Shown here piece after piece: positions 2,749 to 33,245 of a stretch of DNA of 64,000 bases. A program made the translations under genes and the position numbers. This DNA comes from a virus. The stretch spans positions 1 through 64,000 of IMG/VR virus record IMGVR_UViG_3300021185_003122; one strand, given 5' to 3'. Numbering within the stretch: the first letter of the stretch is position 1; each line of letters opens with the position of its first letter. The notes beneath the pieces were generated by a model. The model was not told where the DNA came from. It was given only the letters and a program-made list of their open reading frames with translations, and did no database searches.

Positions 2749-3771
2749 TTAGTAGTCTAACTTGATACGAACTAATGATTCTTTAGAAAAATCTTTTAAT
2801 AGAGGTCTAGATAATTTTGCTACTGCTAACAAATCGTTATTATCATTGTATAAACCTACTGCTGTAATGTATGATTGAGGTGAGTCAATCATTACATTAT
2901 GTCTAATTTCTCCAGAACCTGTGATCAATGAAGGGTTAGTAGAATAGTTAAACTCTGCATTACGTGCTCTAACAAAAACAAAGTTAGATGTAATAGTTTC
3001 TTCAGATTGAACTCTAAAGCTACCACTTAATGTTAGAAGATTATAAAAGGTTGCCATGTTTGCACCTGCTGTATTAGCCGACCTATTAGTATTAAGTGCT
3101 AATCCTCCTTGAGCTGTATTTCCATCTAATGCCTTACCGTTAATAAGTATTACTCCAATATCTGGTAAAAGTTTACCGTATGAACCTGATCCGTTTGTAT
3201 ATCCATTAGTATCTACTCCAGAGTAAACGTTACCTAAAGAACCTGATACTAATTCAAATACTCTTCCTGCATCAGTAAATGTTGTTGTAGCTACTACTTG
3301 ACTATCATCAGTTAAGGTTATTTCCGCACCACTAGAAGATACATGAAGTTTAAATTCTAATGTACCAGGTAGTAACTTCTCTTTGTATCTTGCTCTGTCG
3401 ATTGTAATAGCATAAAAATATTCAGAGTTAATACTTCCAAATGTAAAGTCTTCTTCTTCAGTTCCCAGTACTAGGTTTCTATATTGTCCGTATACTGTTG
3501 CAGAAGGTGACTTTCCAGCAACGTTAGTATTGTAGTATAGTGATCCACTTCCTTTTTTATCTGCGTAAGCTACACTAAATTGCACTCGAGCAGTATCTAG
3601 AGTAGATCCTGTTTGATAAACATCATAATAGAAATCAGCAGAAGTTCCTCCGATTTGAGTTGATGATGTAAAAAATGATGTAAGAGTAGTTACATCTCCT
3701 GACCATACTGGAGCAGTTACTGATTCAGCACTCACCACTACGTCTTCTGTATCGAATCTTTTATATGACAT
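2749..3771 (-). CDS. Tail/baseplate structural protein, paralogue of 1711-2745
   Basis: This 340-residue protein begins MSYKRFDTEDVVVSAESVTA and ends with the conserved block SYITAVGLYNDNNDLLAVAK ... SRPLL shared with its downstream neighbour. The middle is beta-rich with SGS triplets. It lies in the tightly packed tail operon with a 3-base gap on each side. The structural role is inferred from context. No enzyme motif was found. Confidence 0.6.
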   Translation of the reverse strand: MSYKRFDTEDVVVSAESVTAPVWSGDVTTLTSFFTSSTQIGGTSADFYYDVYQTGSTLDTARVQFSVAYADKKGSGSLYYNTNVAGKSPSATVYGQYRNLVLGTEEEDFTFGSINSEYFYAITIDRARYKEKLLPGTLEFKLHVSSSGAEITLTDDSQVVATTTFTDAGRVFELVSGSLGNVYSGVDTNGYTNGSGSYGKLLPDIGVILINGKALDGNTAQGGLALNTNRSANTAGANMATFYNLLTLSGSFRVQSEETITSNFVFVRARNAEFNYSTNPSLITGSGEIRHNVMIDSPQSYITAVGLYNDNNDLLAVAKLSRPLLKDFSKESLVRIKLDY

Positions 3772-4481: not shown

Positions 4482-5429
4482 TAGAGTAACTCCTCCTAGT
4501 TCATTTGTTGTAAAAACTTCTCCTTTGTCTATAGAAAAGACTTTACTTCCTACTGTTCTTACTAAATCATTTCCTTGCTCTGTGAAAATAAAGCTACCTG
4601 AGCTAGGGAAATTAGGAAAAGTTTTTGTAGGATGACTACCAGAAATTTCTGAATTAAAAAAGATTCTTACTATTTCTCTGTCTGATTGGTTAATATTTTT
4701 TATTGTAGTTGTATCTGCATCAGAGCTATGAATACTGCCTTTAAACCCTTTTACTGATTGAGCTGGGGAGTTTCCTGCGATGCGATTACTGTTTACATAA
4801 GATGTTAAATTATCTTTATTTGCCTCGTAAGCAGAACCTGCTGCTGTAAATTTACTACCGTTGTATTTACCGTTTATTATACCTGTTTTAGTATATGAGC
4901 AGTTTTGTATTTCAGCAAACTCTGCTGATTGAGATAAAATAGCATCAAAGTTAGTAGGATTTACGGCATCTGCAAATCTATCTACTTTTTGTGCCTTTGC
5001 GTTTCTTTTACTACCTTCACTATTATTCATTAGAGGATTATAATCGTTATTATTAAACTCTAAAGTTGAATAAGGTACAAAGACAAATTCTGAGTTTTCA
5101 AATGTATTGACTCCTCCTATCTCAGTAGGTAATTGATTTACTACTACTTCATCGAAAGTAAAGTAGAAGTATTCACTTCTTTTTTGTCTTCCTGTTATTT
5201 TTGCTGTTACTGTTCCTGTTGTATAAGTAAAGTTAATATCAGTTACTTCTTTAAATGCTGCCGCTACATTAGTTCCTTCTTGACTAGTAAATGGAATAGT
5301 TAATCCTTGTAAATGAAAAGGAGCTGTAGGGATACTATCAGAACCAGAAACACTACTACTGTAAAGCAGGTTTGCGTTTCCTGTTCCGTACGATTGGGGT
5401 CTAGATGCTATAAATTCTTGTAGTGTCAT
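4473..5429 (-). CDS. Virion structural protein of the tail operon, unknown fold
   Basis: This 318-residue protein starts MTLQEFIASRPQSYGTGNAN and is Ser-, Asn- and Thr-rich. Its middle region (YFYFTFDEVVVNQLP, FVFVPYSTLEFNNNDYNPL) is beta-rich. I do not recognise the family. It follows the 1001-residue tail protein by 2 bases and ends inside the promoter of the next gene. A peripheral baseplate role is the simplest reading. Confidence 0.5.
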   Translation of the reverse strand: MTLQEFIASRPQSYGTGNANLLYSSSVSGSDSIPTAPFHLQGLTIPFTSQEGTNVAAAFKEVTDINFTYTTGTVTAKITGRQKRSEYFYFTFDEVVVNQLPTEIGGVNTFENSEFVFVPYSTLEFNNNDYNPLMNNSEGSKRNAKAQKVDRFADAVNPTNFDAILSQSAEFAEIQNCSYTKTGIINGKYNGSKFTAAGSAYEANKDNLTSYVNSNRIAGNSPAQSVKGFKGSIHSSDADTTTIKNINQSDREIVRIFFNSEISGSHPTKTFPNFPSSGSFIFTEQGNDLVRTVGSKVFSIDKGEVFTTNELGGVTLVE

Positions 5430-17728: not shown

Positions 17729-18169
17729 TTAGTACCTTTCTTCGTTTATTTTTTGTACAGCAGCAATAGCTTGAGTAGGATGCATGTAAAACCCCTCTCT
17801 ATTCTTACTTACTCTAAATTCTTTAAGGTATTCATGAGTTTTTTTCTCTAAATCATGTGCTTCGGTACATTCTACTGACCATTCTAGGTTCCATTTTTCA
17901 ATTACACCTGTAGCAGAGTTAATTTCCTTAATCCTCTGCTGTGGAGACGTAGTAGTAAAACCTATTTTAACTATTCCTGGCATAGATGGGTTAGTAAGTA
18001 CGTAAACAAACTCTCCCCAAGTAGAAGAATATTCATCTAAACGTTCATTCATACCATTTAACCTCCATTGACAGTCATCTGCCATGGTAAGGTTACCTCT
18101 TTCAAGATAAACCTCTTTTCTTGTTCGCATTTCTGCTATTTCTGCCTTTAGCTCCGATATTAGACTCAT
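17729..18169 (-). CDS. T5orf172-type GIY-YIG superfamily protein
   Basis: The 146-residue protein has an N-terminal helix of about 45 residues. A T5orf172-like domain follows, with FVYVLTNPSMPGIVKIGFTT, then QQRIKEIN and a conserved glutamate helix. This group belongs to the GIY-YIG nuclease superfamily and is common in phages and in DNA-modification operons. The tyrosine and KIG motifs are present, so it may be active as a nuclease. It has its own promoter upstream. Confidence 0.7.
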   Translation of the reverse strand: MSLISELKAEIAEMRTRKEVYLERGNLTMADDCQWRLNGMNERLDEYSSTWGEFVYVLTNPSMPGIVKIGFTTTSPQQRIKEINSATGVIEKWNLEWSVECTEAHDLEKKTHEYLKEFRVSKNREGFYMHPTQAIAAVQKINEERY

Positions 18170-19393: not shown

Positions 19394-19439
19394 ATATATA
19401 CATATATATAACCTATATCACTAAAAATCATAAGCTAGA

Positions 19440-19582
19440 GGAAAATGAGACAAGCTCACCCGAGCTCCTTACGAGCCCTTTAGGGAACAATACCGGCACT
19501 GTTATATCAATGTGACGTCAATATTACAGCAACCGGCTATCATCCCAGACGGAAGTATGAAAACCGTCCTATGTTTTTTTCT
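19440..19582 (+). ncRNA. Structured 3' region or small RNA of the plus-strand island
   Basis: This GC-richer segment has several possible stems on the plus strand: AGCTC-ACCC-GAGCT, CCC-TTTA-GGG, and CTGTTATAT at 19499-19507 pairing with ATATTACAG at 19521-19529 around a TGACGTCA loop. The intrinsic terminator closes it. No ORF explains it. It may be a structured 3' UTR or a small RNA. No known RNA family was recognised. Confidence 0.4.
19546..19580 (+). terminator. Rho-independent terminator of the plus-strand island
   Basis: The stem GACGG (19548-19552) / CCGTC (19564-19568) is followed by a seven-T run at 19574-19580. It faces the convergent cytosine-free operon. Confidence 0.6.
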
Positions 19583-19651
19583 GGTGAGGTAGGAAAGGAA
19601 TTATATATAAATAAATTAATACCTATATATAATCCTCTCTCTATTATATTA

Positions 19652-20116
19652 TTATTTAACCAACCACAATCTATTATTAATATTAATCTTTTCTTTAATT
19701 AACATACCACTTCTTCTACACCAATTTTCAAACCTATCATTATAATCATTTACATTCCACCTTCCACTTCTAAAATTATATAACAAACCAAATAAATTAT
19801 TATTATCAAACCTATTCATAAATTCACTTAATAATACCTTTTTATTATCACCAATATATTTCTTTAATATATCTTTAAATAATATATCCATATTATTATT
19901 CCCATATACCTTTTTATTCTTCACAACAATTACATCATATTTCTTTCTATTCATATAATTATAATCCACTTCAACACAACATATATCATTATAACCTTCT
20001 AATTCATAATAATCATTCCATTTAACATCTTTAAATTTAACAATATCATTTCTAACATTATCAAATTCATAACCTTTTTCAACAAAATAATTTAATACTT
20101 TTTCAAATCTTTTCAT
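19652..20116 (-). CDS. Cytosine-free gene A, unknown function
   Basis: The 154-residue protein is encoded without a single C, so it contains no Ala, His, Pro, Gln or Thr. It is rich in Asn, Lys, Asp, Tyr and Val. The order of secondary structure looks ordinary (an N-terminal helix, a beta-rich middle with CCVEVDYNYMNRKKYDVIVV, and a helical C-terminus with FENWCRRSGMLIKEK), so it is probably a real folded protein. The start follows the leader AAAAAGT. No homologue is recognised. It is the last gene before the convergent plus-strand terminator. Confidence 0.75.
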   Translation of the reverse strand: MKRFEKVLNYFVEKGYEFDNVRNDIVKFKDVKWNDYYELEGYNDICCVEVDYNYMNRKKYDVIVVKNKKVYGNNNMDILFKDILKKYIGDNKKVLLSEFMNRFDNNNLFGLLYNFRSGRWNVNDYNDRFENWCRRSGMLIKEKININNRLWLVK

Positions 20117-20152
20117 ACTTTTTAATTTTAATTATTATTAATTTTTATACTA

Positions 20153-20184
20153 TAAATATACAATTTTTATTTCAATTTACAAAC
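20153..20184 (-). promoter_or_regulatory. Cytosine-free promoter of gene A
   Basis: TATATTTA is at 20153-20160 and GTTTG at 20180-20184. It matches the promoter at 23083-23114 at 29 of 32 positions. Both coding-strand C residues of that copy are T here. Confidence 0.7.
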
Positions 20185-20206
20185 TTTTTTAACATTTATT
20201 TTTAAA

Positions 20207-20623
20207 TTATTTATCATTTAAATAAATTTCCAAACCATCCATTAAACATTCTTCTTTTCCACTTATCACAATTCCACCAAATTCTTCCCTATTCTCTCCA
20301 CACTTAATAAAATTAATCAACAAACTATTCATTTTATTATATTCAATATACCATTCTTCACTATCATCACTCATATTCATAACAACAATATTTCTATCAT
20401 CATTTCTTTCATACCTTCCAAATTCATCAATAATATATTCATACCCTTCATCAATACATTCATTTTTAAAATCATTATACCAAATATCAAATATCTTATC
20501 ATTCAATACAACATCTTCAAAATCTTCTTCACATCTACTTCCAAAATATAATTTAATATATTTTCTTTCAACACCATTTTTTAAAACCTCATTTCTTAAT
20601 AATTCATTTTTAATCATTTCCAT
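20207..20623 (-). CDS. Cytosine-free gene B, unknown function
   Basis: The 138-residue protein is also encoded without any C and lacks Ala, His, Pro, Gln and Thr. It is strongly acidic, rich in Glu, Asp, Asn and Ile, with three Cys residues. Its pattern of short helices and strands (WYNDFKNECIDEGYEYIIDE, EWYIEYNKMNSLLINFIKC) looks like a compact alpha/beta protein. It is first in the cytosine-free unit, preceded by a promoter whose upstream half does contain C. No similarity to gene A or to a known family is visible. Confidence 0.75.
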   Translation of the reverse strand: MEMIKNELLRNEVLKNGVERKYIKLYFGSRCEEDFEDVVLNDKIFDIWYNDFKNECIDEGYEYIIDEFGRYERNDDRNIVVMNMSDDSEEWYIEYNKMNSLLINFIKCGENREEFGGIVISGKEECLMDGLEIYLNDK

Positions 20624-20673
20624 ACTTTTTAAATTTAAATTAATTAATATAATATTCCCTTTTTATATTTATA

Positions 20674-20705
20674 TAAAGATAAGAAATAAAATTGTAACTA
20701 CAAAC
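20674..20705 (-). promoter_or_regulatory. Promoter of the cytosine-free unit
   Basis: TATCTTTA is at 20674-20681 and GTTTG at 20701-20705. Its -7 box contains the last C before the C-free stretch begins. Confidence 0.65.
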
Positions 20706-21786: not shown

Positions 21787-22296
21787 CTATTCAAATAAGC
21801 TCAATTGACCAAACTTATTCTCTTTCTCTATCAATTCATAAGCAGCCTGCACTTTAGTAGTTGGTTTGAATCCATTAGCTCTCCAATCAAATACCTCTCC
21901 ATCTTTAACAGTTAAAGCATGATTAGCTATCATTACCATATAAGTACCAGTCAAATGAGAACTAATAAAACTCTTAAGCGTCTTTTTTCTGAAGATCACT
22001 TCTCCGTGCAACTTATATCTATTCTTTATCTCTCCTTTTCCTAACACTCTTACAGCAAACTCTTTTCCTTCTAATTCAATTCCGGAAGTTTCAGCCATTA
22101 ACATTTGAGAAACAATATTCATATTATTAGTTCCTCTTTTATTTTCTCTACCAAAAAAATCTTTACAGAATTTATGAGCAGTTCTATAAGTAATATCAGC
22201 AGCAGATGCAACCGACCTTACAACACAATCATTTTTTTCATTTTTAGCTAAATCCGAATCGAAAGAAGCATACTTTTTATTAACAGTTAAATACAT
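21787..22296 (-). CDS. Papain/C39-like fold protein with C-terminal clamp-binding motif
   Basis: The 169-residue protein has the pattern of phage cysteine-peptidase-like proteins: N-D-C24-VVRSVASAADITYRTAH, then GRENKRGTNN, and near the end ANHALTVKDGEVFDW, giving a Cys24/His126/Asp137 triad. The last residues are GQLSLFE. QLSLF matches the consensus pentapeptide used to bind the bacterial beta sliding clamp. A role in cutting or sequestering a host replication factor is possible but unproven. It has its own promoter. Confidence 0.6.
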   Translation of the reverse strand: MYLTVNKKYASFDSDLAKNEKNDCVVRSVASAADITYRTAHKFCKDFFGRENKRGTNNMNIVSQMLMAETSGIELEGKEFAVRVLGKGEIKNRYKLHGEVIFRKKTLKSFISSHLTGTYMVMIANHALTVKDGEVFDWRANGFKPTTKVQAAYELIEKENKFGQLSLFE

Positions 22297-22320
22297 ATCT
22301 TTTTATTTTTTTATTATACC

Positions 22321-22352
22321 TTAATATACGAACTTTATATCAAACCGCCAAC
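22321..22352 (-). promoter_or_regulatory. Promoter, GTTGG-N19-TATATTAA
   Basis: TATATTAA is at 22321-22328 and GTTG at 22349-22352, with the -33 box inside the last codons of the upstream gene. The leader ends AAAGATATG. Confidence 0.65.
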
Positions 22353-22747
22353 TGTTCCACTAACTTTTTTCCGTAATTATTTAAATTAGTTTTCTTATCC
22401 AGAAAGTACTTAACTTCATCCCAACCATTCTCTAGCGTTCTTAAGGAGAAATATTTAGAGTTAGGTTTAGTAGGTTGCTCTAACCAGTCAATAGGATAAG
22501 GAATATACTTATCAGATTCCCAAAACTTAATCCGTTTCATCTTACCATCATCAGATGGAGTATTATGAGATAAGAATTGATCTACATTCCAGTCTACTAA
22601 TGCTTCAAAATCTGCTTCCGGATCTCCAATATCATTCCAATCAAACAATACTGAATCTATTAACACATCTACATCATACTCATTTACATCCGCTTCATTC
22701 CTTACGAATGCTTTTACAATATAATCTTTTACATAACTTCTATCCAT
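22340..22747 (-). CDS. Small early phage protein, unknown
   Basis: I place the start at the ATG (MDRSYVKDYIVKAF) one base after the upstream stop, giving 135 residues. An earlier in-frame ATG at 22783 would overlap the upstream gene by 35 bases. The protein is acidic with WNDIGDPEADFEALVDWNVD and W-x-P motifs. No family is recognised. It is co-transcribed with 22749-23060. Confidence 0.55.
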   Translation of the reverse strand: MDRSYVKDYIVKAFVRNEADVNEYDVDVLIDSVLFDWNDIGDPEADFEALVDWNVDQFLSHNTPSDDGKMKRIKFWESDKYIPYPIDWLEQPTKPNSKYFSLRTLENGWDEVKYFLDKKTNLNNYGKKLVEQLAV

Positions 22748-22748
22748 A

Positions 22749-23060
22749 TTATTCTTCATATAATTCATTACCGTTAACATCAAAATGATAACTATATCCT
22801 CCTTGCGAATCTCTAATATCTAATTTACAAGCAACATTCTCAAACGGAACATTCTTATCATCCTCTATACTAAAGAAAGATTCATCTACATTCCAATCTC
22901 CTTCTTCATACTCTTTCCTTATCATATCATTATCATACAATCCAATAATCATTCCTCCATCAGCATATTCAAACTCATCATGCATTCTGAATTTCAAATC
23001 ACCAATACTAATACTTTCAATTCTTTCTTTACTACTTTTTTCTACAACAACATTTTTCAT
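22749..23060 (-). CDS. Small acidic early phage protein, unknown
   Basis: The 103-residue acidic protein has MKNVVVEKSSKERIESISIG at the start and a Tyr/Asp-rich end (SYHFDVNGNELYEE). Its first 100 bases of message contain no C, and the whole gene is only about 4 % C in the coding strand. It is first in a two-gene unit from the promoter at 23083-23114. Confidence 0.55.
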   Translation of the reverse strand: MKNVVVEKSSKERIESISIGDLKFRMHDEFEYADGGMIIGLYDNDMIRKEYEEGDWNVDESFFSIEDDKNVPFENVACKLDIRDSQGGYSYHFDVNGNELYEE

Positions 23061-23082
23061 ATCTTTTATCTTTTTATTTACC

Positions 23083-23114
23083 TAAATATACGATTTTTAT
23101 TTCGACTTACAAAC
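23083..23114 (-). promoter_or_regulatory. Promoter, GTTTG-N19-TATATTTA
   Basis: TATATTTA is at 23083-23090 and GTTTG at 23110-23114. It is the C-containing twin of the promoter at 20153-20184. Confidence 0.7.
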
Positions 23115-23396
23115 TTATTTAGTAATTATTTCAATAAATCTTCCCCACTCTTTATTATAATCCTCAATCAAATCATAAGCACAATCATCATCCATACTGA
23201 AGAGAATATCAAACATCTCATCATCATTCTCACCTGCATAAAATGCTGGTCTGTCTTCAAATGCTTCTGAAACTTTATCAAACGTTTCCTTATCAACATT
23301 TTCTAAAATCTTTACATCTTCCGCATCATCCCCCCAAAAGAGAGCAGTATTAGCTTTTAACTTTAAATCTTTAATAACTTTTCTTGAATCTGTCAT
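23115..23396 (-). CDS. Small very acidic early protein
   Basis: The 93-residue protein is about one third Asp/Glu (GDDAEDVKILENVDKETFDK, GENDDEMFDILFSMDDDCAY). Such acidic small phage proteins often mimic DNA or bind basic host proteins. That is inference, and no family is recognised. It is monocistronic with the promoter at 23430-23461. Confidence 0.5.
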   Translation of the reverse strand: MTDSRKVIKDLKLKANTALFWGDDAEDVKILENVDKETFDKVSEAFEDRPAFYAGENDDEMFDILFSMDDDCAYDLIEDYNKEWGRFIEIITK

Positions 23397-23429
23397 AACC
23401 TTTATTTTTTATCTTTTAATTATTATACC

Positions 23430-23461
23430 TAAATATATGATTCTTTTATCGAACTAGCAAC
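23430..23461 (-). promoter_or_regulatory. Promoter, GTTGC-N19-TATATTTA
   Basis: TATATTTA is at 23430-23437 and GTTG at 23458-23461, overlapping the stop of the upstream gene. The leader ends AAAGGTTATG. Confidence 0.7.
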
Positions 23462-23648
23462 TTTCTTTTAAGTTATTTTTAAAAACTTTTGAATCGAAAA
23501 ATAAATGACCAGCCAAATCTTCAGTATTATTAATACCAGCTTCTTCTGCTTCTAATACAATTAAATTCTTTTCATCTTCAGTTAACCAATCAATCAAGTT
23601 AATTTTTAAAATTTCCTCTAAACCTTTTTTAAATTCTAATAATATCAT
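23454..23648 (-). CDS. Small helical early protein
   Basis: The 64-residue acidic protein is predicted mostly helical (LEFKKGLEEILKINLIDWLT, DEKNLIVLEAEEAGI). The coding end contains the -33 box of the next promoter. It has its own promoter at 23671-23702. The function is unknown. Confidence 0.5.
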   Translation of the reverse strand: MILLEFKKGLEEILKINLIDWLTEDEKNLIVLEAEEAGINNTEDLAGHLFFDSKVFKNNLKESC

Positions 23649-23670
23649 ATCTTTTAATTTTAATTACACC

Positions 23671-23702
23671 TTAATTTACGATTACTATTTCGACTTACAA
23701 AC
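23671..23702 (-). promoter_or_regulatory. Promoter, GTTTG-N19-TAAATTAA
   Basis: TAAATTAA is at 23671-23678 and GTTT at 23699-23702. This variant -7 box lies upstream of the gene at 23648. Confidence 0.55.
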
Positions 23703-23770
23703 TTTTTTTACATTTATTTTTTAATTTATACTCATTCTAAATAAACCAATTTCCGGAAAGAAAGAGGTAC

Positions 23771-23800
23771 AAAAAAGAAAAAGGGAGCAAAAAGCTCCCC
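23771..23800 (-). terminator. Rho-independent terminator
   Basis: On the minus strand GGGGAGC-TTTTT-GCTCCC (23783-23800) is followed by TTTTTCTTTTTT. It ends the unit of 23918-24718 plus the small ORF at 23811-23918. Confidence 0.8.
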
Positions 23801-23810
23801 AATTCCATAA

Positions 23811-23918
23811 TTAAAAAATAAAAGTATGTAGCAGTATGAAGATGGGTACTGCAAAACCCAATACTATTGTAGCAACAGTTGAAAACTTATCTATCCAATT
23901 TATAAATTTATCTTCCAT
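23811..23918 (-). CDS. 35-residue membrane peptide
   Basis: The ORF begins at an ATG overlapping the upstream stop (TAATG) and ends just before the terminator. It encodes MEDKFINWIDKFSTVATIVL followed by a further hydrophobic run and the end LLHTFIF, so residues 13-35 form one transmembrane helix. Coupling and position support it as a real gene. The function is unknown. Confidence 0.6.
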   Translation of the reverse strand: MEDKFINWIDKFSTVATIVLGFAVPIFILLHTFIF

Positions 23919-24718
23919 TATGCTATTCTATTTTTATTAACTCTTAAGAATGATTCTACATTATCAAATCTTATCATCTCAACATTTTGAGTTCTAAAAG
24001 TAAAATTATCTGAATCCCAATTCTTATATCGAGTTGTAATTTCTAAATCAACTGACTTTCCGGACGCACTTTTTCGAATACCTTTCAATTTACAAACATC
24101 TGAAATTCTCCAGTTATATTTAAGTTGAAGTTGAGGTAAGTAATTATCATCTTTATCAGAAGACAACTCAATTCCATTATCAGCAAATAACTTCTCTACT
24201 AAAGCTTCTGATTCCAGCTCTTTAATATCATCTTCTTGACTTCTAACAGACTTTCTTATCTCTCTTCCTGATTCATAAAACGTATTCATTAACTTATTAT
24301 ACTTTACGGAATTGGAATTGAATTCAGCAATTATATCATCTTCAAAATCTACAACCAATTGACTGAAATAAGTTAACATTTTATATCTCTTAATAACACT
24401 TTCATCCATTTTTTCAGGTCTGAAAGAACCAGTCGACATTTCTATTCTGCTAAACTTTTCTCCAACTTCTGTTTCCCAATTATGATGCAAGTAAAAATCT
24501 ACTACTCCCCAATTAGAATCGGTATTAGTAATACTTACTCTTTCTCTTCCTATATTTAATACGAACCCTTCATAAGAAGTTCCAAAATACTTTTCCAGAA
24601 TTAACTTCTGTTGATTTTGCATTCTATTGCGCAACATATTAGTTCTTAATTCTAATACATTTTGCTCTTTATAAAGTTGATCTAACCTTAAATTTAAAAT
24701 TTCTACTCTTTTTGACAT
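23918..24718 (-). CDS. Phage protein with N-terminal coiled coil
   Basis: The 266-residue protein starts with a coiled coil (RVEILNLRLDQLYKEQNVLE ... LRNRMQ, residues 4-40). A beta-rich domain follows, then a second helical segment (EIRKSVRSQEDDIKELESEA). No family is recognised. It has its own promoter and is followed by a 35-residue membrane peptide and a terminator, forming a complete small unit. Confidence 0.5.
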   Translation of the reverse strand: MSKRVEILNLRLDQLYKEQNVLELRTNMLRNRMQNQQKLILEKYFGTSYEGFVLNIGRERVSITNTDSNWGVVDFYLHHNWETEVGEKFSRIEMSTGSFRPEKMDESVIKRYKMLTYFSQLVVDFEDDIIAEFNSNSVKYNKLMNTFYESGREIRKSVRSQEDDIKELESEALVEKLFADNGIELSSDKDDNYLPQLQLKYNWRISDVCKLKGIRKSASGKSVDLEITTRYKNWDSDNFTFRTQNVEMIRFDNVESFLRVNKNRIA

Positions 24719-24742
24719 ATCTTTTATTTTTTTAATTATACC

Positions 24743-24774
24743 TTAATATAAGAACTAATAATCAAAAAGGCAAC
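24743..24774 (-). promoter_or_regulatory. Promoter, GTTGC-N19-TATATTAA
   Basis: TATATTAA is at 24743-24750 and GTTG at 24771-24774. The leader ends AAAGATATG. Confidence 0.65.
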
Positions 24775-25151
24775 TTATTTTCGACTTTTTTTATCTCTTC
24801 TTCTATAAACTCAACAAAATCGCCAGCATAATCTTTTCCTCCAATATGCCATCTACTTCCAAATACAGATTTAGCTTCTTCTAAACTCCCAACTTCATTT
24901 CTAGCAAATTCAGGAGATTCAGACTTCCAATCATATATAGTAAATAACTGAATACCGTTTTCTTCAGTTTCAAACTCTACTACCCATTCATACATTACTT
25001 TACCATCACCACTATTTTCAGGTCCATAAGTCGGGTTGCCAAAATAATCTACTAAATCATTATAAGTAATACCGTAACTTAATTTACTTTTTAAAGACGT
25101 TCCTGCAGTTTCAGGAGCATCCATTTCATCATAAGTTGTAATTTTTGTCAT
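24762..25151 (-). CDS. Small acidic early protein, unknown
   Basis: The 129-residue protein has LVDYFGNPTYGPENSGDGKV and a conserved-looking EWVVEFETEENGIQLFTIYD strand pair, then an acidic tail. The pattern GDGKV.YEW....F suggests a compact beta-rich fold. I recall similar small proteins in phages but cannot name a function. The end overlaps the next promoter. Confidence 0.5.
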   Translation of the reverse strand: MTKITTYDEMDAPETAGTSLKSKLSYGITYNDLVDYFGNPTYGPENSGDGKVMYEWVVEFETEENGIQLFTIYDWKSESPEFARNEVGSLEEAKSVFGSRWHIGGKDYAGDFVEFIEEEIKKVENKLPF

Positions 25152-27710: not shown

Positions 27711-28886
27711 TTATATTAAATTTGCTGCTTTATTTACTTTCATAAATAATCTATCAATAACAGGAGCATGACCACAATTTTCAACACATAAAATACATTT
27801 GCCATCTTCTATAGATTTATCCCATCCTTTATAAAAGAAAGAATCAAACGTTTTAAAGATATCTGAGTATTCAGTACTGTTTAAGTTTACTTTATCAGGT
27901 CCTCCTACTCCTTGAAGTAGTTGATTAGGAATTTCTGAACCAGCAGCATTATCTGCTAGAGCATATCCTGTATAACAACATGGAAGTAATACTCCGTTAG
28001 GAGTAAGGTATAGACCTTTATGCTTATCACTATCAACTTCACATTGAATTGAAGTATTATCTAAATGAGAATATTTAGAGTAATCAATATCCATAGGTTT
28101 GTATTCAGGAAGTTTATTGTACTTTAAAATTTTATTTACATCAATTGAGTCACTTCCTTTTTTAATCTTCTTCATGCTTTTAGATAAATGAGATTTAGGA
28201 AGAGATATACTATAAACCTTTTTACCTTCTTTATCATATACAGGAGTATCCCATGTAAGATTATTAACTTGATCTTCCATACCTAATGATCTTTTAGGAG
28301 CAAAAAACTTAAAACCAAGATTAGTAGATAATTTTTTAGCATCATCTATCTGATGTTCATTATGTTCAAATGTAATAAAGTCCCACTGAGCTGTTCCACC
28401 ATTATCAATAAATGCTTTTACATTGTCCATTAGTTTAGACCATTTAACATTTCTTCTATAAAGGTGATTAGTATCTTCTAGTCCATCTATTCCAAAAATA
28501 ACTAAATGAGATTTAAATAATTTAAGATAAGAAGCTAACTCTTTCCAGAATTTAGGATTACGATTTCCTCCATTAGAATTAACTGATATGTGCATATCCT
28601 TTCTAATATTAGCTACATAACCAATTATATCTAAAATATATGGGTTAGAACAAGGATCTCCATAGTCTCCACATAATTTTAACTCTTTTACTTTTTTAAT
28701 TATGTTTGGACCAAGCCATTTATCTAAATTTTCAACAGTTAAGTCTTCTAATTTAAGTTGAGGATGTTTTACAGGAGTTCCTGGAATAAATCTAGCACAT
28801 ATAGGACAAGCGGCATTACATCTAGTTGTTGCCTCAATATGAATGTAGTATTCTACTTCTGATCTATTATGGGAATTAGTCCACAT
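27711..28886 (-). CDS. Radical SAM enzyme with C-terminal Cys cluster
   Basis: The 391-residue protein has the radical SAM 4Fe-4S motif CxxxCxxC at C23, C27 and C30 (TRCNAACPICARF). SAM-binding features follow (CGDYGDPCSNP). A SPASM-like C-terminal region has CEVDSDK, GVLLPCCYTGYA and CILCVENCGHA, which could hold further clusters. Similar proteins occur in large marine phages. It overlaps thyA by one base, so the two are co-expressed. The substrate, possibly a peptide or nucleotide, is unknown. Confidence 0.8.
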   Translation of the reverse strand: MWTNSHNRSEVEYYIHIEATTRCNAACPICARFIPGTPVKHPQLKLEDLTVENLDKWLGPNIIKKVKELKLCGDYGDPCSNPYILDIIGYVANIRKDMHISVNSNGGNRNPKFWKELASYLKLFKSHLVIFGIDGLEDTNHLYRRNVKWSKLMDNVKAFIDNGGTAQWDFITFEHNEHQIDDAKKLSTNLGFKFFAPKRSLGMEDQVNNLTWDTPVYDKEGKKVYSISLPKSHLSKSMKKIKKGSDSIDVNKILKYNKLPEYKPMDIDYSKYSHLDNTSIQCEVDSDKHKGLYLTPNGVLLPCCYTGYALADNAAGSEIPNQLLQGVGGPDKVNLNSTEYSDIFKTFDSFFYKGWDKSIEDGKCILCVENCGHAPVIDRLFMKVNKAANLI

Positions 28887-29683
28887 TAATTACTTAGAGG
28901 AGCTTTTATAGATGGATGACTTTTGTAATTAATTAAATCTACATCGAAGTCTCCTGTATAAATATTAAAGCAAACAACTTTAGCTTCCGGAAGGTCATAA
29001 GAATATCTGTCTAATTGCTTTTCTGCTTGCTCTAAATGATTGGTATATAAATGAACATCTCCAAAGTTGCCTATCAGCTCTCCAGGTTCTAATCTAGTCT
29101 CTTTACATAGTAACAACAGTAACAAACCGTAACTACTAATGTTAAACGGTACTCCTAAGAATAGGTCAGCACTTCTTTGATTCCACATAAGAGAGAGCTT
29201 ACCATCTGCTACATAACATTGAAAAGAGTAATGGCATGGAGGAAGAGTCATCTTATCTAAATCTTCTACATTCCAACTATCAACCAAATGTCTTCTACTA
29301 TCTGGATTGCTTATAATTCCTGTAATCAGATTCTCTAGCTGATCAATACCATTTATGTCTCTCCATTGCTTACCGTATATAGGTCCTAACTCTCCATCTG
29401 TTCTACCAGACTTCTTATAATCACCATCCCATATCTTACAGTTATTATCTTGAAGATACTTAATATTAGTATCACCTCTTAAGAACCATTTCAACTCAGT
29501 AACCATAGTCTTAAATGCAATCTTCTTAGTAGTCAAGATAGGAAAACCATCTGACATATCATGTCTGATTGATGCTCCGAAGATAGATTTAGTACCTGTT
29601 CCGGTCCTATCAGTTTTAACAACTCCTCTAGTAAGAACTTGTTTGAGAAGTTTCTGATAGTCGTTGTCTAAACTATTAGCCAT
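28886..29683 (-). CDS. thyA: Thymidylate synthase
   Basis: The 265-residue protein is full length for ThyA (E. coli 264). It shows FPILTTKKIAFK, WDGDYKKSGR, the active-site LPPCHYSFQ (Cys near 147), RSADLFLGVPFNISSYG and GDVHLYTNHLEQ. It makes dTMP from dUMP with methylenetetrahydrofolate, supplying phage DNA synthesis. It overlaps the upstream 62-residue ORF by 8 bases and the radical SAM gene by 1 base. Confidence 0.97.
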   Translation of the reverse strand: MANSLDNDYQKLLKQVLTRGVVKTDRTGTGTKSIFGASIRHDMSDGFPILTTKKIAFKTMVTELKWFLRGDTNIKYLQDNNCKIWDGDYKKSGRTDGELGPIYGKQWRDINGIDQLENLITGIISNPDSRRHLVDSWNVEDLDKMTLPPCHYSFQCYVADGKLSLMWNQRSADLFLGVPFNISSYGLLLLLLCKETRLEPGELIGNFGDVHLYTNHLEQAEKQLDRYSYDLPEAKVVCFNIYTGDFDVDLINYKSHPSIKAPLSN

Positions 29684-31028: not shown

Positions 31029-33245
31029 TTATACTAATTTATGATTTACTTTAAGGTCTTGTCTGTTGAATACTTCGTTAAGAGAGTCATTATCACCTAA
31101 TCCTGATACTATATGACCATCAACTATAAAGTTGTGCTCACTTTCGAATAGCTTATCACCATCTACTTCTAGGTTGTACCAGTTAGTAATATACATTTGC
31201 TCTACCTCTCCTACCTTATCTAGTGTAGTCCAGTTATTATCTACTAATACTGGGTGTTGAGGTTCTCCAATCATATTCTCTGTCTTAACTACATCTACTA
31301 CTGCTTCAGTTGGGTGAACTAATGCTTTAGTAACTATACCTTCGACAAACTCTCCATTTCTAAATGATTTTACTTTATCTCCTTCTACTACTTCTCCAAT
31401 TGGTTTAGTAGTTCCATCAAACATCTCTACTTGAGAATCGTAAGTAAAACATTTCCAGTTATGTACTAAGTATCCGTTAGCATAGAAATTATAGTTATCA
31501 GCAACGTCATCTAATCTATATACAGTTACTTCTCCTTCTTGAACTTCTATTCCTTTTACTTCTACTTCGTTATTGTCTTTAGATACTAATTTATCTCCTT
31601 CTGTTAAGTCTTGAGCAACTGTCCAGCCTTTTCCAGCAACATATAATCTATGAAGAGGAGTAGAAATAATCTCATCTCCTTCTAGAGTTACCTTAATAAC
31701 TTTATCTACTTGACTTGACTTAACACTTCCTACTGTAGCTGGCTCTCCTTCTCCTGTTTTTTCATTCCAAGATAAAAGCTCATCTCCTGATACTACATCT
31801 TCGATGTTTTTAGTATCTCCATTAGATAGAGTAATTACTGTACCTGCAGGGAAACAGTTGTGAGTTACAATCTTCAAGTGAGTGTTTTCATCTGCAAGGA
31901 AGAATGTATCTGTAGTTTCCATATCTACAACGTGTACATTATATGATCCGCTTAATACTTCAGCTTCATTACTAGCAATTGGAACTAATGAACCAGAACT
32001 ATTAATTAATGAATGGACAGCTGGATCAACATCTACTAATGTTTCATACTTTAACTTATTAGAACCTGACTCATGTACTAAGATAGCAGATGCTCCTGAT
32101 ATTCTAATAGGTCCACTTCCTGATGGTGTTAAGTTAAAGATAATTCCATATGGTAATGAAAGCTCTACGTTATTAATAAGAACTGAGCTAGTAATGTAAG
32201 AACCAGAAGGTAAATCTGAACCTGCATGTTCCCATTCTAGATATTCTGTAGCAACATCACTATCAGGTGAACCTGAAATGAAATATGATTTAAATGTATC
32301 ACTTACAGCTGCTCCTGAAATAGCTACGATAGTTCCATCATCTTTTACTAATTCTTCTTCTTCAAATATTCCACCGTAATCAGTTCCTACACCAAATACT
32401 GGAGTGTTAGTTGCAAATTCAAAGTAATGTTGATTACCAAATTGATGAGCTAATTGAGAGTCAGAAGCATCTGTAGAAGTTGGTTTTTCTAGAACTGCTT
32501 CAGTTTCTGTGTATGCAAGAATGCTTTGCGATAAAGCTGTACCATAAACAACACTGTATAATCTAGTTGATACTGCTTTACTTCCAGAAACATTTTCGTA
32601 ATAATTTTGAATTAATGAATTACCATCCTTAATTTCATCAATAAAATTAGTATATCTATCATCTGAACCAGAAGTAGAATGACCAATCTTATAAAACTTT
32701 AATGGTTGGTACATAGTAGTAGTTGTATCTTTAACTACAATGTCAGGCATGTTAGATGAATTAAAAGTTCTATCTAAAGTATCTACTACTCCTTCTGAAG
32801 AAGAATAGTAATAAGATGCTGCTGATCCTGAATCATTATTGTCATAAAATAATTCTAATATGTTTAGATTATTTTTTGCGTATGTACTGTCTAAGATTGC
32901 TGCTTCATCATATGCCAGTCTTAAAATAAACTTACTATCACTATCCGAAATAGATGTAGGATAGATAGTAGTTCCTTCTTCAATAGTTTTATTGAAGGTT
33001 AATGCTGAACCAGTATAGTCTGATGCTATACTAGATGAGAAGTGATTTACAAAGTCAGTTTGATGATCTTTGTAAACTACATGAATCTCAGTAATATTGT
33101 TTGAGTCCCATACTGGGTATAGGGATGAATAGTCGAAATGCGTAAAGGCAGCTGATGCAATACCTGTATCAGTGTTTATTTCTAAAAGCCTTAGGTTATC
33201 CGAACTATCTGTTGCAAAGTCTGCTGAAAATAAGGTACCTTTCAT
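31029..33245 (-). CDS. SGS-rich structural protein ending in two tandem Hint domains
   Basis: The 738-residue protein has a 463-residue SGS-rich N-terminal region, like the tail proteins of this phage. The first Hint domain spans 464-596, from CFPAGTVITLSNGDTKNIED to NFYANGYLVHN. The second starts at Cys599 (CFTYDSQVEMFDGTTKPIGE) and runs nearly to the end, without a terminal His-Asn. After the first domain comes Trp instead of Cys, Ser or Thr, so classical splicing should fail and cleavage or transfer is more likely, as in bacterial intein-like domains. The protein may be cut or linked to a partner during assembly. Confidence 0.75.
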   Translation of the reverse strand: MKGTLFSADFATDSSDNLRLLEINTDTGIASAAFTHFDYSSLYPVWDSNNITEIHVVYKDHQTDFVNHFSSSIASDYTGSALTFNKTIEEGTTIYPTSISDSDSKFILRLAYDEAAILDSTYAKNNLNILELFYDNNDSGSAASYYYSSSEGVVDTLDRTFNSSNMPDIVVKDTTTTMYQPLKFYKIGHSTSGSDDRYTNFIDEIKDGNSLIQNYYENVSGSKAVSTRLYSVVYGTALSQSILAYTETEAVLEKPTSTDASDSQLAHQFGNQHYFEFATNTPVFGVGTDYGGIFEEEELVKDDGTIVAISGAAVSDTFKSYFISGSPDSDVATEYLEWEHAGSDLPSGSYITSSVLINNVELSLPYGIIFNLTPSGSGPIRISGASAILVHESGSNKLKYETLVDVDPAVHSLINSSGSLVPIASNEAEVLSGSYNVHVVDMETTDTFFLADENTHLKIVTHNCFPAGTVITLSNGDTKNIEDVVSGDELLSWNEKTGEGEPATVGSVKSSQVDKVIKVTLEGDEIISTPLHRLYVAGKGWTVAQDLTEGDKLVSKDNNEVEVKGIEVQEGEVTVYRLDDVADNYNFYANGYLVHNWKCFTYDSQVEMFDGTTKPIGEVVEGDKVKSFRNGEFVEGIVTKALVHPTEAVVDVVKTENMIGEPQHPVLVDNNWTTLDKVGEVEQMYITNWYNLEVDGDKLFESEHNFIVDGHIVSGLGDNDSLNEVFNRQDLKVNHKLV

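Follow-up and report, generated by a model that had tools for sequence, protein, structure and literature searches.

The DNA analysed here, a window of 64,000 nucleotides (nt) from an 80-kb viral fragment of IMG/VR, contains a unit of two genes whose coding strand lacks cytosine (C) over 1,079 consecutive nt. The two genes belong to families that we call A1 and A2, and comparison with related contigs shows that these families and a third one, A3, are kept free of C over the whole presumed transcript in Immutovirus-like Bacteroidetes phages, known from sea water and from culture. We tentatively interpret the unit as a natural three-letter messenger RNA, that is, an early counter-defence or takeover module that might be transcribed when the supply of C, or its tolerance in RNA, is blocked; we put the chances of this interpretation a little below even.

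The coding (minus) strand is devoid of C, and the plus strand of G, from 19599 to 20677, exactly as the original prediction had placed the run. The second longest G-free run on the plus strand of the window measures only 102 nt, and no C-free run on that strand exceeds 46 nt. The tract consists of a leader, two minus-strand open reading frames (ORFs) separated by 90 nt of spacer, and a tail; the two genes, spacer, internal promoter and 3' tail listed in the prediction are thus all present, the internal promoter being likewise C-free. Under an order-2 model fitted to those neighbouring sequences that are poorest in C, the log10 probability of a run of 1,079 nt is about -43, which agrees with the prediction that chance is negligible. 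With the proteins taken as given, the exclusive use of C-free codons has a probability of 10^-8 per gene when the most C-poor early genes serve as background and of 10^-13 to 10^-15 per gene when all genes do. Ala, Thr, Pro, His and Gln are missing from the proteins of the unit, which use 15 amino acids, and their absence contributes a further 10^-9 to 10^-14 per gene; the 197 non-coding nt of the unit, taken alone, give P = 1.4e-12. The remaining genes of the window contain 3.8-19% C, so that the neighbours do contain C, as predicted, over a range wider than the 4-16% originally quoted. A tandem or low-complexity repeat and a drift to extreme AT content were both rejected, the ORFs being conserved and using 15 amino acids and the neighbouring DNA having 26-36% GC.

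The absence of C is shared by homologous loci. A search with the HD phosphohydrolase retrieved 378 IMG/VR relatives, of which 80 loci were read, and homologues of A1 and A2 were recognized in nine further contigs (L007, L008, L009, L010, L011, L012, L020, L052 and L170). The homologous coding DNA of all nine contains zero C. The C-free run extends over 1,077 nt in L010, over 987 nt in L011 and 735 nt in L008 (up to the contig end in both), and over 1,890 nt with four genes in L012. The original prediction had made its fate depend on the C content of such loci; none with normal C content was found, ten contigs (the window included) having C = 0 and one cultured relative 1.4% C. Since amino-acid identity among the C-free homologues goes down to about 43%, the C-free state is evidently old and maintained. 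Indeed, among 271 nucleotide differences within the unit, counted in five pairwise comparisons, none involves C, compared with 75/154, 73/154 and 83/188 (about 48%) in genes just outside it. These comparisons share sequences and are not fully independent; both clades (window/L007/L008 and L010/L011/L012) show the pattern. Within the unit A, G and T interchange freely, and each new C is removed. An assembly artefact was rejected, as independent contigs agree. Seven of the ten unit-bearing contigs (L007, L008, L009, L011, L020, L052 and L170) break inside the tract and read coverage of C-free DNA seems poor, and the module may therefore be under-counted. A scan of viral contigs with the hairpin that ends the run matched five contigs, all already known.

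The limits of the run suggest what is being kept free of C. The final C ahead of the run, at 20678, lies within the -7 box TATCTTTA, in line with the predicted start at a promoter. A start inside or at a -7 box recurs among the homologous loci; with a slash marking the beginning of the run, the sequences read CTTATC/TTTATATAAA in the window, TTTATTC/TTATATT in L012, TTCTCCC/TATATTAAGG for the second gene of L007 and CCCTATATTGC/TAAAG in L010. The internal promoter (GTTTG ... TATATTTA, about 20150-20185) is C-free and L012 is arranged alike; in L007 the Cs between the two genes are confined to the promoter spacer of the second gene. At the other end, the run closes with a conserved hairpin of A-U pairs only (ATTATATATA-loop-TATATATAAT) in the window, L007-L011 and L020, and C is back within a few nt. 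In L012, L052 and L170 the run has other endings, adjacent to an ordinary terminator or to the promoter that follows. The untranslated stretches (leaders, spacers and tails) are thus as C-free as the codons, and the C-free stretch would correspond to a whole transcript, from promoter to 3' end. Because these untranslated parts are purged too, a purely codon- or protein-level cause is excluded, and the constraint, as far as sequences can tell, acts on the transcript or on the template strand. This is the unit of constraint that had been predicted, and the sharp promoter and 3' limits and the similarity of the homologous loci agree with it. The features are collected in Table 1.

Table 1. Features of the C-free unit and the related A3 gene in the window
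Feature	Position	Strand	Details
Cytosine-free transcription unit	19599..20677	-	coding strand without C, plus strand without G
Promoter	20674..20705	-	GTTTG at about -33; -7 box TATCTTTA at 20674-20681
ORF, family A1	20207..20623	-	138 amino acids, of 15 kinds; homologous to immuto gp143; L012 has paralogues
C-free spacer with internal promoter	20117..20206	-	GTTTG at 20180-20184, TATATTTA at 20153-20160
ORF, family A2	19652..20116	-	154 amino acids; C-terminal winged-helix-like fold in a moderate-confidence model
A-U-only stem-loop ATTATATATA / TATATATAAT	19600..19633	-	closes the C-free run; conserved in seven loci
ORF, family A3, outside the unit	22749..23060	-	12 C in 312 nt (3.8%)

The gene order of the source record is common with Flavobacterium phage vB_FspM_immuto_2-6A (NC_055915, Immutovirus; hereafter immuto), a Baltic Sea isolate with T4-like structural genes. 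Identity to immuto amounts to 60% for the HD phosphohydrolase, 59-66% for the glycosyltransferases, 66% for DUF932, 65% for GroEL and 67% for PolA; PolA, GroEL/ES, glycosyltransferases, DUF932 and HD phosphohydrolase, found in conserved order, place the record among the Immutovirus-like Bacteroidetes phages. Immuto carries a divergent A1 homologue, gp143, 28% identical to the ORF of the window, with 5 C in 357 nt (1.4%) among neighbours of 8-15% C. In the syntenic early region of immuto (L016, 11.8-19.4 kb), about 17 promoters belong to one class, AGTTG...TATATTTAGG, and 16 of 17 leaders carry 1-4 C past the -7 box, mostly within the conserved TATCAATAATTAAAAC; the leader of gp143 (TTATTAATAATTAAAAATATAAAAG) is the sole C-free one of the set. 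Similarly, the leader of the A3 gene in L172 is the only C-free one among ten. Thus the C-free property goes with particular genes and their transcripts, and not with a genome region or a promoter type, because the families keep it in different surroundings (L172, L012, immuto).

The three families have no detectable similarity to one another. A3, which lies outside the unit in the window, is inside it in L008 (partial, 0 C) and L012 (1 C), and stands alone in L172, where it has one C and another in the last codons. In L012, L172 and immuto the leftover Cs tend to lie within two or three codons of the gene end, although the cases are few. The AlphaFold2 model of A1 has a predicted local distance difference test (pLDDT) score of 80 and the model of A2 a score of 74; both models are of moderate confidence, and neither has a significant fold match in PDB. 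Only weak matches were seen, to an uncharacterised viral protein and to a PADLOC methyltransferase. In annotated phages, homologues of gp143 occur in the four immuto records only and none of A2, L012 A1 or L012 A3 was found; bacterial genomes gave no homologue of A2. The module is absent from many members of the group that have the region sequenced. The genes are small and accessory, as counter-defence genes typically are, and promoter and position suggest that they are early.

A factor that makes each single C costly, either because synthesis of the chain terminates or fails there or because the RNA is cleaved there, fits these data best. Natural selection would then act on the RNA (or on template-strand G) and remove each new C. 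The products would be needed while RNA polymerase cannot incorporate C or while C-containing RNA is destroyed, and most other early genes could wait until the block is over; as those others have not been cleared of C, the C-free genes must presumably be special and work while the block is on. The likeliest setting would be a host defence that poisons or withdraws cytidine triphosphate (CTP), for example a viperin making 3'-deoxy-3',4'-didehydro-CTP (ddhCTP), or one that cleaves RNA at C residues. Transcription of the C-free module would go on despite the defence, which the module might then lift. The accessory distribution resembles that of early counter-defence genes. Our leading explanation, held tentatively, is therefore that accessory early genes have been selected to remain expressible under conditions in which RNA containing C is either left unfinished or lost, counter-defence being their most likely role. 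If true, single transcripts would gain immunity by avoiding one base, and a C-directed defence of Flavobacteriia, whether already known or not, would come to light.

Several points weigh against this explanation. The defence agent is putative, and searches for protein function (PHROGs, Pfam, PADLOC, PDB by sequence and by fold) gave nothing convincing. Selection on the RNA and selection on the template strand are inseparable by sequence alone. Neighbouring early genes show a graded depletion (4-10% C), unforeseen by an all-or-none block, and the accessory distribution was partly read from incomplete contigs. Moreover, bacterial viperins yield ddhUTP and ddhGTP as well (PMC10732462), which C-free RNA would not evade.

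Escape from ddhCTP, which the original prediction had named, is still a candidate cause. To our knowledge, viperin-made ddhCTP is the only established agent of a block imposed by the host. The host family does have true viperins, with matches better than the NCBIfam cut-off in 6 of 301 Flavobacteriaceae genomes, but nothing connects them with this phage, and in the papers searched no phage escape from viperin by base avoidance was found. A viperin encoded by the phage itself was considered for the radical-SAM protein at 27711-28886 and rejected, since NCBIfam assigns it to the twitch-domain radical SAM proteins and not to the viperins; the PADLOC pVip match to it is unspecific, the same model matching all 14 controls. 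This twitch-type radical-SAM protein adjoins a thymidylate synthase (27711-29683).

The genes might either lift a block imposed by the host, which is the alternative we tentatively prefer, or impose a block from which they exempt themselves, which we regard as unlikely. In the latter case a product of the C-free genes would itself halt or degrade RNA that contains C, in the manner of a C-specific RNase, a CTP-depleting enzyme or a terminator of transcription comparable to T4 Alc. The message of these genes would be immune, so that host shut-off spares the synthesis of their products. Host shut-off that depends on cytosine has a precedent in T4 Alc. Such an effector would account for the purge being limited to these genes when their neighbours use the same promoters, and for its extension to several families within one unit. 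However, the other phage genes, with about 12-18% C, would suffer too, fold searches gave no match to a nuclease or nucleotide enzyme, and many relatives are without the module.

Selection might also act on the template strand. If 7-deazaguanine in the phage DNA hinders the unadapted host RNA polymerase, the genes needed first would be selected to have no template G. This version is attractive because immuto has the 7-deazaguanine pathway (FolE, QueC/D/E/F and DpdA); DpdA is also found in G020-G023, phages that carry the RNA element located downstream of the unit (see below), and early genes are generally C-poor on the coding strand in both immuto and the window. Nevertheless, 8-15% C persists in other early genes that use these promoters, neither DpdA nor QueC was found in the searched unit-bearing records, all of which are fragments, and both are lacking in G008, a 105-kb relative without the unit. 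We consider this origin distinctly unlikely.

Without C no G-C pair can form, and the purge could serve to keep the message unstructured or to escape Rho, which loads on C-rich RNA, or structure-dependent RNases. The predicted folding energy per nt of the unit (-0.12 to -0.14 vs -0.16 to -0.24) is indeed the weakest among the compared segments, and avoidance of structure or of Rho accounts for the direction of the bias. But lone Cs would be tolerable in such a message and none was seen in 271 differences, and a conserved hairpin is retained at the end of the unit. Avoidance of Rho or of RNases, as the original prediction had envisaged, does not require zero C, and we consider these causes quite improbable.

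Very unlikely, in our opinion, is a mutational origin, in which a cytosine deaminase or similar activity converts all Cs of the exposed coding strand to T. It would leave exactly zero C and the other bases free, and T is the base most enriched in the unit. Yet the protein sequences are conserved, and comparisons of A3 show Gln vs Ser and Pro vs Ser (AGT-coded), changes that deamination cannot produce. The same promoter class drives C-rich neighbours, and no obvious targeting signal was seen in it. Since these neighbours keep 8-15% C and C-free genes stand isolated among normal ones, both the deaminase and the general CTP shortage of the original prediction are disfavoured; a regional mutator is also at odds with a property that follows gene families. 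A cause in translation or in the protein, such as tRNA cleavage or an unusual amino-acid composition, or else chance, low complexity or an assembly artefact might be suggested by the five missing amino acids and by the contigs that end inside the poorly covered tract, but the C-free untranslated parts, the agreement of independent contigs, conserved ORFs rather than repeats and the log10 P of about -43 refute them for practical purposes and leave them a negligible probability.

Directly downstream of the unit, at 19422-19598 in minus-strand sense, lies a conserved, probably structured non-coding element with the core TGCCGGTANNNTTCCCTA, for which an Rfam search gave no match. It is common to many IMG/VR contigs (L012 at about 3000-3180, L100 at 5001-5201, L138, L144, L155, L159, L169 and others) and to the 634-kb phage LR745206. 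Also near the unit, 17729-18169 encodes a GIY-YIG / T5orf172-type protein, and immuto has gp123, with a T5orf172 domain, at the matching place. At 21787-25151, a cluster of small genes of early type has a mildly C-poor coding strand (4-10%), and similar mild depletion occurs in immuto at 68-74 kb (7-11% C) and in L093 at 1-2000 (5-9% C). Farther away, 31029-33245 encodes a protein of 738 amino acids with Hint/intein-like and Vint domains in its C-terminal half.

Long C-free tracts of this kind are rare. Scanning of 21 phage records for 150-nt C-free runs matched the eight unit-bearing records and immuto only. Bacterial scans covered 301 Flavobacteriaceae genomes (runs of at least 185 nt) and 398 Flavobacteriales genomes (at least 277 nt), two overlapping samples, and the C-free tracts, where inspected, were mostly simple repeats or belonged to very small AT-extreme genomes. 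The clear exception is a 320-nt C-free coding stretch of a truncated serine recombinase (L253 2772-3091, minus strand; G325:C5 at about 45.1-45.7 kb) in a Flavobacteriaceae genome of 1.7 Mb; among the ordinary bacterial genomes it is the one unambiguous case of a C-free gene that is not a repeat. A further Flavobacteriaceae genome has a non-repeat C-free stretch of 257 nt beside a tRNA-Val gene, with no clear gene (L254 1918-2174). Searches of the open-access literature did not turn up a natural message that codes for protein and has been cleared of one nucleotide.

That independent phages conserve the C-free state shows that a strong force, still at work, bars C from particular messages. Once identified, this force would expose either a defence directed at cytidine in RNA and the way the phage counters it or a previously unrecognized rule of early phage transcription. 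The question is open to direct experiment, since immuto, which is in culture with its host Flavobacterium sp. LMO8, carries a near-C-free member; C-free reporters would be useful tools besides.

Among known systems, chain termination by viperin-made ddhCTP is comparable in that C-free RNA would stay untouched by it. T4 Alc makes gene expression depend on cytosine, likewise in a T4-like phage, but it tells modified from unmodified DNA genome-wide, whereas here single genes are purged in their message. The early region of immuto resembles the window in having early genes each with its own promoter and a near-C-free gp143 with a C-free leader; it differs in that gp143 stands alone and is not fully C-free, and the annotation of the record is silent on the scarcity of C. 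The C-less and G-less cassettes, man-made tools for in vitro transcription, give transcripts that also lack one nucleotide; unlike them, the unit described here is natural, protein-coding and conserved.
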